A stretch of DNA of 64,000 bases from Silvimonas amylolytica (GTDB lineage Bacteria; Pseudomonadota; Gammaproteobacteria; Burkholderiales; Chitinibacteraceae). The notes beneath the pieces were generated by a model, which searched no databases, had not been told where the DNA came from, and worked only from the letters and a program-made list of their open reading frames with translations. Location of the stretch: positions 329,939 through 393,938 of the forward strand of contig NZ_BMLY01000001.1 of the NCBI RefSeq assembly GCF_014645555.1, given 5' to 3'. Position 1 is the first letter of the stretch. Each line of letters opens with the position of its first letter. Shown here piece by piece: positions 1 through 51,142 of the stretch. The position numbers were made by a program, and so were the translations under genes.

Positions 1-882
1 ATACTTGCCTTTGAGTGCATCGGGAAACTCGGTGTACTCCAGCAGTCCTTCAGACAAGACCTGATCCAGTGTCAGCACCGACTTGCCTTCGTGCTGACGG
101 AACGTGTTGATGACGGACGTCGCCACATCGTTGAATGGCTGGGCACGGCCAGTCCCGACGTTGTAGACGCCGCAGACCTCAGCGTTATCCAGGAACCACA
201 GATTGACCTTGACCACGTCTTCCACCGACACAAAGTCGCGGGTGTGGCCGCCGGCCGGGTAGCCGCCGTATTCACCAAACAGCTTGACCTTCCCATTCTG
301 GCGATACTGGTTGTAGTGATGGAAAGCCACGGACGCCATGCGCTCCTTGTGCCATTCGCGATCACCATACACGTTGAAATAACGGAAGCCGACAGCCTGG
401 GCCGAGAGGTCATCCCAGCGCTGACGCAAGACCTGATCAAACAGCAGCTTGGAATAACCGTATACGTTCAGCGGCGATTCGCATTCCGGATCTTCATGAA
501 AACCATTCGTGCCCGCGCCATAGGTTGCCGCGCTGGAGGCATACAAAAACTGGACTTCCTCCGCCTGGCACCATTCGAACAGACCCAGCGTGTACTGATA
601 GTTGTTTTCCATCATGTACTTGCCGTTGTGCTCCATGGTGTCAGAACATGCGCCCTGGTGCAGGATGGCGGTAATCTGGCCATCCCAGCGACCACTGGCC
701 AGTTCGGCAATGAAGTCGTTCTTGTCGACGTAGTGCGAGATCTGGCAATCGACCAGATTGCGGAACTTGTCGCCGCGCGTGAGGTTGTCCACGGCGATGA
801 TGTCGGTTTCGCCTCGCTCGTTGAGCGCCTTGACGAGATTGGAACCGATAAAACCGGCCGCGCCGGTAACCACGATGGTCAT
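1..882 (-). CDS. hldD: ADP-L-glycero-D-manno-heptose 6-epimerase, 3' end cut by window edge
   Basis: Makes the L-glycero-D-manno-heptose donor for the LPS inner core in the cytoplasm. The 294 visible residues start at the ATG at 882, preceded by an AGGAG. They show the Rossmann GAAGFIG nucleotide motif at residues 7-13, Ser116, and the YxxxK pair Tyr141/Lys145 (YGYSK), as in the extended SDR heptose epimerases. E. coli HldD is 310 residues, so only about the last 15-40 codons lie outside the window. The start lies 3 nt downstream of the GH9 stop codon, so the two genes are probably cotranscribed. Confidence 0.95.
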
Positions 883-44975: not shown

Positions 44976-47393
<2,418 letters not shown>

Positions 47394-47722
47394 CAGCGGA
47401 CCTCGTCAGAATGTTGCGTTGCAGAATGGATTCCTCTCATTCTAGGCTGGGGCAAACCGTCGCATAGTTGGCGAAATCCTTTACGGGAAAATCCCGCATC
47501 GGGAAAGCCCCAACTCTCGCCAATAGTCTGATTTTTATTGAGTTTATGTTACGTGTACGCGATATGAACTATCACAATTGTGTGTGTCAATTGCAATATC
47601 TGACACACAGTTGTCGCCCAAACGGTGCGTTTAGGGGTTTCGGCAATATGACACTTTGCTAACTCATTTATGCTGGATAAATTTATCTCTCTGAAATGAC
47701 GGCCCTACGGAGCTGCTGAACC
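47394..47722. promoter_or_regulatory. Divergent ppsA-ppsR control region with inverted repeats
   Basis: A 329-nt region without a gene, AT-rich compared with its flanks. It holds a perfect inverted repeat TGTGTGTCA-N11-TGACACACA (47581-47609), a 12-bp palindrome GATAAATTTATC (47676-47687) 35 nt before ppsR, and a small hairpin CGGGA-AAA-TCCCG (47484-47496) on the ppsA side. The first has the size of an operator for a dimeric regulator. No clear -35/-10 pairs were found. Confidence 0.5.
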
Positions 47723-48541
47723 ATGCCGCGTACCGCGTTTTTTGTCTCAGACCGCACCGGGATTACCGCAGAAATGCTCGGGCATTCGCTTTTGACGCAA
47801 TTTGATGACGTCAATTTCCGCCGCATTGCCCTGCCGTTTATCGATACACCAGAAAAGGCGCTTGAAGCCGCCGCCCGCATCCGCGAACAGGCCGCCGCCG
47901 ATCAATGCCGCCCCATTGTCTTTACCACCATGGTGGATGAATCACTGCGCAAGATCACCCATGTGCCAGAAGCGCTGACGCTGGATTTTTTTGAAATCTT
48001 TATCAGCCCGCTGGAACAGGAATTGGGGCGCGAATCTTCACATACCGTCGGCCGATCTCACGGTATTTCCAATTTCGAGGAATACAAAACCCGGATTGAC
48101 GCTGTTAATTTCGCCATTAGTCATGACGATGGCGTCATGCCGCGAGATTTGAACGAAGCAGACATTATCCTGATTGGCGTTTCGCGCTCGGCCAAAACAC
48201 CCACATGTTTGTATCTGGCGCTGCAATATGGCATCAAGGCGGCCAATTACCCGCTCACACCCGAAGACTTTGGCGCACATACCTTGCCACGCTTGTTGCT
48301 ACCGTATCGCACCAAACTGTTTGGCCTGACGATCGACCCCGATCGGCTGGCGCAAATCCGCGAGGAACGCAAACCTGGCAGCCGTTACGCCGCGCTGGAT
48401 AACTGCCAGTTTGAGGTGTCTGAGGCAGAGGCGCTGATGCGCCACGTCGGCGTGCCGTATCTGAGTTCGACCACGCGCTCGATTGAAGAACTGGCCACTA
48501 CCATCATGCATCGCACCGGGCTGACGCGACGCACTTTCTGA
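47723..48541 (+). CDS. ppsR: PEP synthase regulatory protein, copy 1 (P-loop Gly to Ala)
   Basis: Bifunctional DUF299 family: ADP-dependent Thr kinase and Pi-dependent pyrophosphorylase that switch PEP synthase off and on. The 272-residue protein keeps SDRTGITAE (Asp10) and HDDG, but its P-loop reads [15 protein letters not shown]: the Gly before Lys is Ala157, where the family (and copy 2) has Gly. It lies divergent from ppsA. ACGGAG sits somewhat far upstream of the ATG. The substitution may weaken nucleotide binding. Confidence 0.93.
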
Positions 48542-48569
48542 CCTGTAACGCAGTCCCTTGGGTAGCTTC

Positions 48570-49388
48570 ATGATCCGCACCGCTTTTTTTGTCTCTGGCC
48601 GTACCGCCATCACCGCAGAAATGCTGGGACACAGCCTGATTACGCAGTTCGATGACGTGAATTTCCGCCGCATTGTGCTGCCGTTTATCGATACCGAAGA
48701 AAAAGCACTGCAAGCCGTTGCGCAGATCAAGGCGCAGGCCGCGGCAGATCAGTGCAGGCCGGTTGTGTTCTCTACCTTTATCAGTGAAAACCTGCGCAAG
48801 CTCTTTGTGATTGAAGAAGCGCTGACGCTGGATTTTTTTGAGACCTTTATTGGTCCGCTGGAAAAAGAACTGGCGCGCCAGTCCAGCCACACCGCCGGCA
48901 AAGTACACGCCATCACCAATTTTGAAGAATACAAAGACCGGATCGATGCGGTGAATTTCGCCACCACGCATGATGATGGCGGTATGGCCAAAAACCTGCA
49001 GGACGCGGATGTCATTCTGGTCGGTGTATCACGTGCGGGCAAAACGCCAACGTGTCTTTACCTGGCACTCCAATATGGCATCAAAGCCGCCAACTACCCA
49101 TTCACGCCGGAAGACTTTGCCGATCACCGCTTGCCCAAGCCGCTGCATCCGTTCCGCAACAAGCTGATCGGCATTACCATCGAACCCGCGCGCCTGTCGC
49201 AAATCCGGCAGTCTCGCAAACCGGATAGCCAGTATGCGCAGCTATCAACCTGCGAACAGGAAGTGGCTCTGGCAGAAAGCCTGATGCAGCATGAGAACAT
49301 CCCGTTTTTGAATACCACGCGGCTGTCGATTGAAGAGTTGTCGACTACCATCATGGTCAAGGCAGGGCTGAAGCGTCGCTGCTATTGA
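48570..49388 (+). CDS. ppsR: PEP synthase regulatory protein, copy 2 (SDRT Asp to Gly)
   Basis: Tandem paralogue of the gene before it, also 272 residues and starting 28 nt downstream; 26 of the first 30 residues are identical. The P-loop is canonical ([15 protein letters not shown], Gly157) and HDDG is kept, but the N-terminal SDxT motif reads SGRTA: Asp10 of copy 1 is Gly10. I chose the ATG at 48570, which gives exactly the length of copy 1. The copies thus differ at two otherwise conserved sites, one each. Confidence 0.93.
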   Translation: MIRTAFFVSGRTAITAEMLGHSLITQFDDVNFRRIVLPFIDTEEKALQAVAQIKAQAAADQCRPVVFSTFISENLRKLFVIEEALTLDFFETFIGPLEKELARQSSHTAGKVHAITNFEEYKDRIDAVNFATTHDDGGMAKNLQDADVILVGVSRAGKTPTCLYLALQYGIKAANYPFTPEDFADHRLPKPLHPFRNKLIGITIEPARLSQIRQSRKPDSQYAQLSTCEQEVALAESLMQHENIPFLNTTRLSIEELSTTIMVKAGLKRRCY

Positions 49389-49524: not shown

Positions 49525-50250
49525 ATGTCCCGATCCCGTAGCGAAGCCTCTGCTTTTGAATTCAAGAATATCGGGCTCAAACTGCTGACCTTTGTGCCAG
49601 CCACCACCGATATCGCCGCGCTGGAAGCCGCGCTTCAGGCCAAACTGGGCGGCCGGGATCATATGCTGTCTGGCGATCAACTCGCTATTGATTTCAACCA
49701 GTTACCGCAAACTCCCAGTGCAATTGAAGTCACTGCCATGGTCAATGTGCTGCGTCAGTTCAGCTTGCAGCCCGTGGGCGCTTATGGTGGCAATGAAGCG
49801 CAGCAGATTGCCGCGCGTGAAGCTGGCCTTGTGGTGCTGTCGGATGAGGGCGTTAGCCTGCCTGCGGCGACTCCGGCTCCGGCACCCGCTGCGCCGGTCA
49901 TTGCGGAGCGCACGCCCACCATGGTCATCACCCGCCCGGTCCGTACCGGTCAGCAGGTGTACGCCAAAGATGCCGATTTGATCGTCATGGCACTGGTTTC
50001 CAACGGTGCCGAAGTCATCGCGGACGGCAATATCCACGTGTATGCACCCTTGCGCGGTCGCGCACTGGCTGGTGCCCGGGGTGATGCCAACGCCCGTATT
50101 TTCACCACCTGCATGGAAGCAGAGCTTGTTTCCATTGCCGGTATCTATCGCACGCTGGACGAATCTTTGCCGGCCTCGCTCAAATCGAAGCCGGCGCAAG
50201 TGTTGCTAAACGAAGACAAACTCGTGATTGAAACACTGACGCTGTCGTAG
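49525..50250 (+). CDS. minC: Septum site-determining protein MinC
   Basis: FtsZ polymerisation inhibitor of 241 residues. The N-terminal FtsZ-binding domain (about 1-105) and an Ala/Pro linker (PAATPAPAPAAP) are followed by the C-terminal beta-helix (GQQVYAKDADLIV, GRALAGARGD, AELVSIAG) that binds MinD. It starts the minCDE operon. Confidence 0.96.
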   Translation: MSRSRSEASAFEFKNIGLKLLTFVPATTDIAALEAALQAKLGGRDHMLSGDQLAIDFNQLPQTPSAIEVTAMVNVLRQFSLQPVGAYGGNEAQQIAAREAGLVVLSDEGVSLPAATPAPAPAAPVIAERTPTMVITRPVRTGQQVYAKDADLIVMALVSNGAEVIADGNIHVYAPLRGRALAGARGDANARIFTTCMEAELVSIAGIYRTLDESLPASLKSKPAQVLLNEDKLVIETLTLS

Positions 50251-50332
50251 GCAAAGCCAGCAACTTATATACATGTACAGTCGGATTGCCGACTGCATCA
50301 CTGACCGAATCCAGACCTACAGGGGATTTTTT

Positions 50333-51142
50333 GTGGCCAAAATCATTGTTGTCACCTCCGGCAAGGGCGGCGTGGGTAAAACCACTACCAGCGCTAGCTT
50401 TGCATCCGGGCTTGCGTTGCGCGGCTTCAAAACTGCCGTGATCGATTTTGACGTGGGCCTGCGTAACCTTGACCTGATCATGGGTTGCGAACGCCGCGTG
50501 GTGTATGACTTCGTGAACGTCATCCAGGGTGAAGCCACCCTGCGTCAGGCGCTGATCAAAGACAAGAACTGCGACAACCTGTTTATCCTGCCTGCCTCGC
50601 AAACACGCGACAAAGAAGCGCTGTCCAAAGAAGGCGTGGAAAAAGTCCTCAAGGAACTGACCCACGACGGTTTTGACTACATCATCTGCGACAGCCCGGC
50701 TGGTATTGAGACCGGTGCCTTCCTGGCGCTTTACTTTGCCGACGAAGCCATTGTGACCACCAATCCGGAAGTCTCCTCGGTCCGTGACTCTGACCGGATC
50801 ATCGGTATTCTGGATGCCAAGTCCCGCAAGGCCGAAGAAGGTGGTAGCGTGAAGACGCATCTGTTGATCACCCGTTATTCGCCCAAGCGTGTGGATAGCG
50901 GCGAGATGTTGTCGCTGGATGATGTTCAACACCTCTTGCGCATTTCGCTGATTGGCGTGATTCCGGAATCCGAATCCGTGCTGCAAGCATCCAACGCGGG
51001 TACGCCGGCCATTCATAACGAAGGTACGGATGTCTCGGAAGCCTACAAAGACGTCGTTGCCCGTTTCCTGGGTGAAGACAAGCCGCTGCGTTTTATCGAA
51101 GTCCCGAAGCAGCCGTTCTGGAAGCGGTTGTTCGGAGGTTAA
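50333..51142 (+). CDS. minD: Septum site-determining ATPase MinD
   Basis: Membrane-associated ATPase that recruits MinC to the poles. The deviant Walker A SGKGGVGKTT holds Lys11 and Lys16. The C-terminal amphipathic helix ends FWKRLFGG. It has 269 residues from a GTG start at 50333, preceded by AGGGG; the frame is open 20 codons upstream, but the family starts at this GTG. Confidence 0.97.
   Translation: MAKIIVVTSGKGGVGKTTTSASFASGLALRGFKTAVIDFDVGLRNLDLIMGCERRVVYDFVNVIQGEATLRQALIKDKNCDNLFILPASQTRDKEALSKEGVEKVLKELTHDGFDYIICDSPAGIETGAFLALYFADEAIVTTNPEVSSVRDSDRIIGILDAKSRKAEEGGSVKTHLLITRYSPKRVDSGEMLSLDDVQHLLRISLIGVIPESESVLQASNAGTPAIHNEGTDVSEAYKDVVARFLGEDKPLRFIEVPKQPFWKRLFGG

Follow-up and report, generated by a model that had tools for sequence, protein, structure and literature searches.

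Why does Silvimonas amylolytica keep two PEP synthase regulators (PpsR) side by side, each of which lacks a different conserved residue of the DUF299 family? The two genes lie head to tail in a stretch of 64,000 nucleotides (the window; contig NZ_BMLY01000001.1, positions 329,939 to 393,938) and are divergent from ppsA. An initial annotation made from the letters alone described two paralogues of 272 residues, 28 nt apart and next to ppsA, with Asp10 and Ala157 in copy 1, Gly10 and Gly157 in copy 2, and an HDDG motif in both. It proposed that each copy had retained one of the two reaction directions of the enzyme, or that the two form a heterodimer. Our coordinates, residue assignments and profile scores agree with the description (Table 1). 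Both proteins pass the cut-off of the NCBIfam PpsR equivalog NF049928 (350 bits), copy 1 with 396.5 and copy 2 with 376 bits, and match PF03618 with E-values of 1.1e-79 and 8.2e-75, respectively. A profile search of the whole genome found exactly two PF03618 genes and one PEP synthase (E <= 1e-60), which has the RTCHA motif. The HDDG motif occupies residues 134-137 in both copies and is followed by the loop GMAKN in copy 2 versus VMPRD in copy 1. For copy 2 we took the ATG at 48570 as the start; the open reading frame list has an upstream TTG at 48558.

Table 1 Features of the ppsR pair and its surroundings in the window, with related neighbouring copies from other genomes of the class
Feature	Position	Strand	Remarks
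ppsA, presumed target of the pair	44976..47393	-	sole PEP synthase found in the genome; RTCHA motif from residue 425
ppsR copy 1, 272 aa	47723..48541	+	Asp10 intact; P-loop GVSRSAKT with Ala157; HDDG intact
Copy 1 codon 10, GAC (Asp)	47750..47752	+	motif S9-D-R-T12
Copy 1 codon 157, GCC (Ala)	48191..48193	+	P-loop position preceding Lys158
Intergenic gap between copies 1 and 2, 28 nt	48542..48569		
ppsR copy 2, 272 aa	48570..49388	+	Gly10; Ala13; P-loop GVSRAGKT; HDDG intact
Copy 2 codon 10, GGC (Gly)	48597..48599	+	motif S9-G-R-T12
Copy 2 codon 157, GGC (Gly)	49038..49040	+	
minC, constant downstream neighbour	49525..50250	+	TIGR01222 200.9 bits, cut-off 95.25
minD	50273-51142		beyond minC; methionyl aminopeptidase gene also there
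Neighbouring ppsR copies elsewhere in the class, one without Asp10	L142:4040-5898; L144; L145; L146:7259-8191		

PF03618 is present in all 43 genomes of the Chitinibacteraceae, as two copies in 13 and as one copy in 30, and 19 of 24 outgroup genomes of the order have one copy and five have none; one copy is thus usual among genomes that have the gene, as the initial annotation had assumed. The pair occurs in five genera, in the lineages of Silvimonas, Amantichitinum, Andreprevotia, Jeongeupia and Chitiniphilus (named records: Chitiniphilus eburneus, Chitiniphilus shinanonensis, Andreprevotia lacus, Andreprevotia chitinilytica, Andreprevotia IGB-42, Amantichitinum ursilacus, Jeongeupia naejangsanensis and Silvimonas terrae). 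Its members are adjacent and at the same locus in all 13 pair genomes, so the recurrence in relatives that the annotation had proposed to look for is found in 13 of 43. The gene order ppsA, ppsR, (copy 2), minC is identical in the 43 family loci, with minD next after minC wherever the stretch reaches.

The residue pattern is fixed along with the pair. Copy 1 combines Asp10 with Ala157 in 13 of 13 genomes, and copy 2 combines Gly157 with either Gly10 (10 genomes) or Ala10 (3 genomes). Our set of 75 proteins contained these 26 pair members, 30 single-copy proteins of the family and 19 from the order's other families. Asp10 and Gly157 occur together in all 19 outgroup proteins and in 24 family singles, while the other six singles, all from one genus (g5), have Gly10 and Gly157. 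At codon 157, GCC in all 13 copies 1 stands against GGN in all 30 single-copy family members. Because the reciprocal split recurs in every pair genome, we regard it as beyond chance. In genus g5 (L045, L051, L057, L061, L064, L067), the sole PpsR has an independent D10G change together with Val16; in all six genomes its P-loop is intact and ppsA lies next door.

The two substitutions also stand out against the conservation of the protein as a whole. With the six g5 homologues excluded, 45 positions are invariant in the remaining 43 single-copy proteins; just one of these, G157, has changed in every one of the 13 copies 1, and just one, D10, in every one of the 13 copies 2. When the g5 rows are added, the invariant positions number 44; all copies 1 still lack G157, and no invariant position is missing from all copies 2. 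The complementary losses described in the annotation are therefore real and reciprocal, with one invariant position per copy. Lys158, Asp136, Arg155 and the DDG of the HDDG motif are retained by both copies in all 13 pairs. Copy 2 further differs from copy 1 at positions 138, 140 and 142 of the post-HDDG loop and at several C-terminal positions, and Glu215 is missing from copy 2 in 10 of 13 pair genomes.

The pair appears to face a single target. In 42 of 43 family genomes, including all 13 with the pair, the search returned one PEP synthase (E <= 1e-60), and we therefore rejected a second PEP synthase as the reason for the second regulator. The sole exception, G020, has a second PEP synthase gene (contig C66, 69514-71862) and a single ppsR. 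A change in PpsA that matches the pair was likewise rejected: the RTCHA motif is intact in 45 of 46 aligned rows, and the 46th is gapped there. Column 46 of the PpsA alignment alone separates 12 pair sequences from 30 single sequences.

The PpsR of E. coli (PSRP), which belongs to the same NCBIfam equivalog and acts on PEP synthase, is described as a bifunctional ADP-dependent kinase and Pi-dependent pyrophosphorylase (PMC2817694). There, one protein performs both reactions, whereas here two paralogues each lack a different conserved residue. The closest known parallel for paralogous DUF299 regulators with an unequal balance of activities is found in plants, in maize PDRP1/PDRP2 and Arabidopsis RP1/RP2 (PMC6019023). 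These differ from our pair in that their substrate is PPDK and that they are not a bacterial tandem pair acting on PEP synthase. According to the same report, maize PDRP2 is specific to bundle-sheath chloroplasts, PDRP1 is active in the mesophyll, and their catalytic residues are alike (PMC6019023). No report of a tandem PpsR pair was found among the titles and abstract beginnings listed by our searches of open-access texts.

We modelled both proteins with AlphaFold2 (mean pLDDT 88.2 for copy 1 and 87.7 for copy 2), and the secondary structure of the copy 1 model is nearly the same as that of copy 2. The best PDB match of the copy 2 model is maize PDRP with AMP (5d0n; Foldseek E 3.0e-15, TM 0.69/0.68; VIA-align Z 18.5, rmsd 3.2 over 239 aligned residues), far ahead of the next rows (Z 8.9; E 5.4e-3). 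Two residues of the maize protein, Asp277 and Lys299, reportedly have catalytic roles, which were assigned with the maize structure by Jiang in 2016. In an alignment anchored by one numbered peptide of the maize protein (PMC6019023), these correspond to Asp136 and Lys158, Gly157 corresponds to Gly298, and Asp10 to Asp145. Residues 10 and 157 are each predicted to lie in a strand-loop-helix turn; for residue 10 it is the one that follows strand 1 of the N-terminal domain, and for residue 157 it is the P-loop of the C-terminal domain. Given these positions in the models, the pair would be split by domain and not by reaction direction.

The C-terminal half of the copy 2 model resembles a nucleotide kinase (YorR, Z 8.9) and the N-terminal half a periplasmic-binding fold (Z about 7); these scores are middling and carry no weight in our conclusions. 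Homology between the two domains was sought by profile comparison and not found (probability 3.6). A review describes PDRP as superposing structurally on HPrK/P, a member of a different family (PMC9138534). HPrK/P is absent from the best 50 structural matches of our model.

The location of residue 10 bears on the proposal that one copy mainly catalyzes ADP-dependent inactivation and the other mainly Pi-dependent reactivation. A precedent is provided by maize PDRP2, which is described as an active kinase with almost no Pi-dependent activation at normal concentration; however, its catalytic residues are unchanged, and the authors suggest dimer stability (PMC6019023). According to a review, both DUF299 activities reside at one C-terminal active site (PMC9138534), of which both copies retain Lys158 and Asp136 in all 13 pairs, and residue 10 lies outside the C-terminal domain in our models. 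Since single-copy homologues moreover include proteins with Ser157, Ala157 or Gly10, as detailed below, the assignment of one direction to each copy found no support and we consider it improbable. Complementary roles or a heteromer, the broader part of the original interpretation, remain reasonable readings.

The annotation had also implied that Ala157 breaks the P-loop of copy 1. Gly157, which copy 2 has and copy 1 lacks, is the usual residue in the class: the 91 distinct sequences that we obtained by fetching part of the matches of a class sample (29 new loci and 60 regions) have Gly in 87, Ala in three and Ser in one. It does not define the family, as residue 157 is Ser in all 13 DUF299 proteins that we examined from other classes of the phylum (presumably Alphaproteobacteria). 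A scan of GTDB r220 species genomes for the Ala157 codon pattern returned at least 35 stretches, a lower bound since only exact matches to one pattern on contigs of at least 3,000 bases were counted and the host genome was possibly omitted. Eight of these are Chitinibacteraceae pairs, all with an adjacent copy 2 that has Gly or Ala at position 10; 26 are other DUF299 loci, and one (L094) is not DUF299. Of the 26 loci outside the family, 21 have Asp at position 10, one has Asn and four do not show it; a ppsA match of at least 50% identity is present in the stretch seen at 15 of the 26. Their assemblies have one PF03618 gene in 23 cases and two in three, although most are metagenome-assembled genomes (MAGs) in which a second copy could be missing.

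Since Ser or Ala stands at 157 in single-copy homologues, Ala157 need not inactivate copy 1, and the claim of a broken P-loop is not supported; a small residue seems to be enough at this position in those homologues. A lowered activity may nevertheless be considered. The Gly that precedes the P-loop Lys of RhoA, Gly17, presumably occupies the matching position. RhoA-G17A is described as nucleotide-free (PMC9954420), an example of nucleotide binding lost through a Gly-to-Ala change in a P-loop protein. As an analogy from a different protein, this gives only a hint that Ala157 might lower the activity of copy 1. Among the Ala157 loci, those of two Loigolactobacillus species are accompanied in the genome by a second DUF299 gene with Ser157, and that of an Ammonifex MAG by one with Gly157 (L081/L225, L095/L226, L096/L227). 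In an alphaproteobacterial MAG, the Ala157 DUF299 gene (L104:5124-6188) is broken by a TAG stop.

Position 10 is conserved in most sequences of the class: of the 89 in which it is visible, 79 have Asp, five Asn, three Cys, one Gly and one Glu. All 13 proteins of other classes have Asp there. The Asp of the SDxT motif, present in copy 1 and replaced by Gly in copy 2, was therefore not treated as defining. On a tree of 206 rows, from which sequences with 60 or more gaps were excluded, loss of Asp10 amounts to six changes. Because Gly10 stands in the sole PpsR of the six g5 genomes, the loss need not be complemented by a second copy. Both substitutions thus occur in single-copy homologues, which goes part of the way towards the counterevidence that the annotation had named for its own proposal. 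The His of HDDG varies at L009, L023 and many loci of the class sample, with H in 36 and N in 33 of the 91 class sequences; the motif is therefore better read as xDDG.

More than one copy is rare in the class. A match was found in 117 of 274 sampled genomes, and six of the 117, including S. amylolytica, have more than one real copy; G100 and G200 were set aside, as the two matches in each seem to be fragments of a single gene. G133 has two copies on separate contigs, each with Asp10 and Gly157. In G080, G127, G153 and G277, two neighbouring copies lie approximately 0.25-2.3 kb apart, and one of them has Cys or Gly at position 10 and an intact P-loop Gly. The copy without Asp10 is the second in G080 and G127 and the first in G153 and G277. 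Judged by the tree, these losses probably represent two events, because G153 and G277 are congeneric and G080 and G127 have copies that are mutual nearest rows. Loss of Asp10 in one of two copies is thus a recurring event. These genomes resemble our pair in having one copy that lacks Asp10 and keeps the P-loop Gly. They differ in that the copy with Asp10 has Gly157, so there is no reciprocal loss; among the loci examined, Asp10 is lost in one copy and Gly157 in the other only in Chitinibacteraceae.

The four genomes raise the possibility that only one member of the pair works as an enzyme, with its partner serving as a pseudoenzyme or a dominant modulator through binding to PpsA or to the active copy. 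Among the copies lacking Asp10, those of G080 and G127 have a decayed HDDG as well, and in the Chitinibacteraceae dN is greater in copy 2 than in copy 1 in all eight within-genus comparisons. This reading, however, sits poorly with DDG, Lys158 and Arg155 in both copies of every pair and with low dN/dS (copy 1, 0.010-0.095; copy 2, 0.033-0.171; same eight comparisons), and we think it doubtful. Purifying selection acts on both copies; neither appears decayed, and copy 2 is the faster-evolving one.

Selection and divergence also speak to dosage or drift, in which redundant copies would be kept and the substitutions would be near-neutral passengers fixed soon after duplication. Ala157, Ser157 and Gly10 are indeed tolerated elsewhere. 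Yet none of the 13 pairs, which span five genera, departs from the pattern, despite dS that reaches 1.8 even inside one genus, and the substitutions coincide with invariant positions, which makes this explanation very unlikely. Identity between copies 1 and 2 is 0.64-0.70 within a genome, about the same as between genomes (mean 0.669), and there is therefore no sign of homogenisation.

The history of the pair was reconstructed from a PpsR tree and from a tree of four neighbouring proteins, in which the row of S. amylolytica is 34% filled. In the PpsR tree, copy 2 is monophyletic (support 100/99). Copies 1 fall into two pieces: eleven group together (99/96), and the two from Chitiniphilus group with the single genes of G004, G014 and G023 (87/95). 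The same three single-copy genomes join the Chitiniphilus pair genomes in the tree of flanking proteins (100/100), and this group adjoins Andreprevotia (100/97). Presence and absence of the pair require four changes on the flank tree. The placement of copies 1 is weakly resolved: a clade of copies 1 alone (p-AU 0.158) and a clade of copies 1 with the three singles (p-AU 0.134) are both not rejected, and neither forms in the best quick tree. Because copy 2 forms a single clade, its loss is the likelier history of G004, G014 and G023.

The PpsR of these three genomes has Gly157, encoded by GGC. Ala157 consequently matches the presence of copy 2 in all 16 members of the pair clade and in all 43 family genomes. 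The match could have arisen through a single gain followed by one or two reversions, or through repeated gains; either history ties Ala157 to the presence of copy 2, and the independent events are few. A chimeric origin of the three single genes, or gene conversion, found no support at residue 157. In windowed identity they are copy-1-like at 137-204, and only the last window (239-272) is equally close or closer to Chitiniphilus copy 2.

The tie matters for the reading in which the copies are specialised, independent homomers, both active on one PpsA and tuned to differing nucleotide, AMP or Pi levels, with Ala157 and Gly10 shifting affinity or set-point. Two copies can equally persist in this way: Lys158, Asp136 and Arg155 are in place in both, Gly10, Ala157 and Ser157 are each known from single-copy proteins, and both genes are under purifying selection. 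By itself, however, it fails to explain why one otherwise-invariant residue is lost per copy (g5 set aside) and why, within the clade, the genomes without copy 2 also have no Ala157. We consider independent homomers possible, though on the unlikely side.

We tentatively favour the view, without rating it at even chances, that the two copies are retained, interdependent regulators of one PpsA, likely as a hetero-oligomer. The reciprocal losses suggest, at the level of sequence, that the copies now depend on each other. E. coli PSRP is reported to be tetrameric (PMC2817694) and maize PDRP a homodimer (PMC6019023), and the PpsR proteins of E. coli and B. anthina self-associate in two-hybrid assays (PMC10667639). 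Because PpsR proteins self-associate, a hetero-oligomer would be the simplest physical form of such a dependence.

On the interdependent reading, ppsR would have been duplicated in tandem once, in the common ancestor of the lineages of Silvimonas, Amantichitinum, Andreprevotia, Jeongeupia and Chitiniphilus, and the two resulting regulators of one PpsA would have become interdependent. Copy 2 would have kept the usual catalytic P-loop, lost the N-terminal Asp10 and altered its post-HDDG loop, and copy 1 would have kept the N-terminal site and accepted Ala for Gly in the catalytic P-loop. The copies would most likely assemble with each other, as a dimer or tetramer of mixed composition. The nucleotide-dependent chemistry would then fall mostly to copy 2, and N-terminal sensing or PpsA docking to copy 1, perhaps with a weakened second active site. 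A stricter form, in which a bifunctional kinase/pyrophosphorylase that is normally homomeric has been divided by nature into an obligate two-subunit regulator, with a catalytic copy 2 and a sensor or docking copy 1 and with Ala157 viable only beside copy 2, is conceivable but unlikely.

DUF299 enzymes run two opposing reactions, and the pair separates the N-terminal Asp from the P-loop Gly. Paralogues that keep Asp10 or the P-loop Gly are ready-made, evolution-fixed variants for asking which domain senses what. The locus is also a clear example of a tandem duplication whose products may have become interdependent, with sister genomes that lost a copy as a built-in control.

In the surroundings of the pair, no RNA family reached the gathering threshold between 44000 and 53000, and no promoter-like site was found between 47300 and 49700 (shuffle mean 1.7). 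The latter interval contains four terminator-like sites (shuffle mean 2.7). An open frame of 759 codons runs antisense to ppsA at 45252-47531 on the plus strand; it is probably a mirrored reading frame and no gene.
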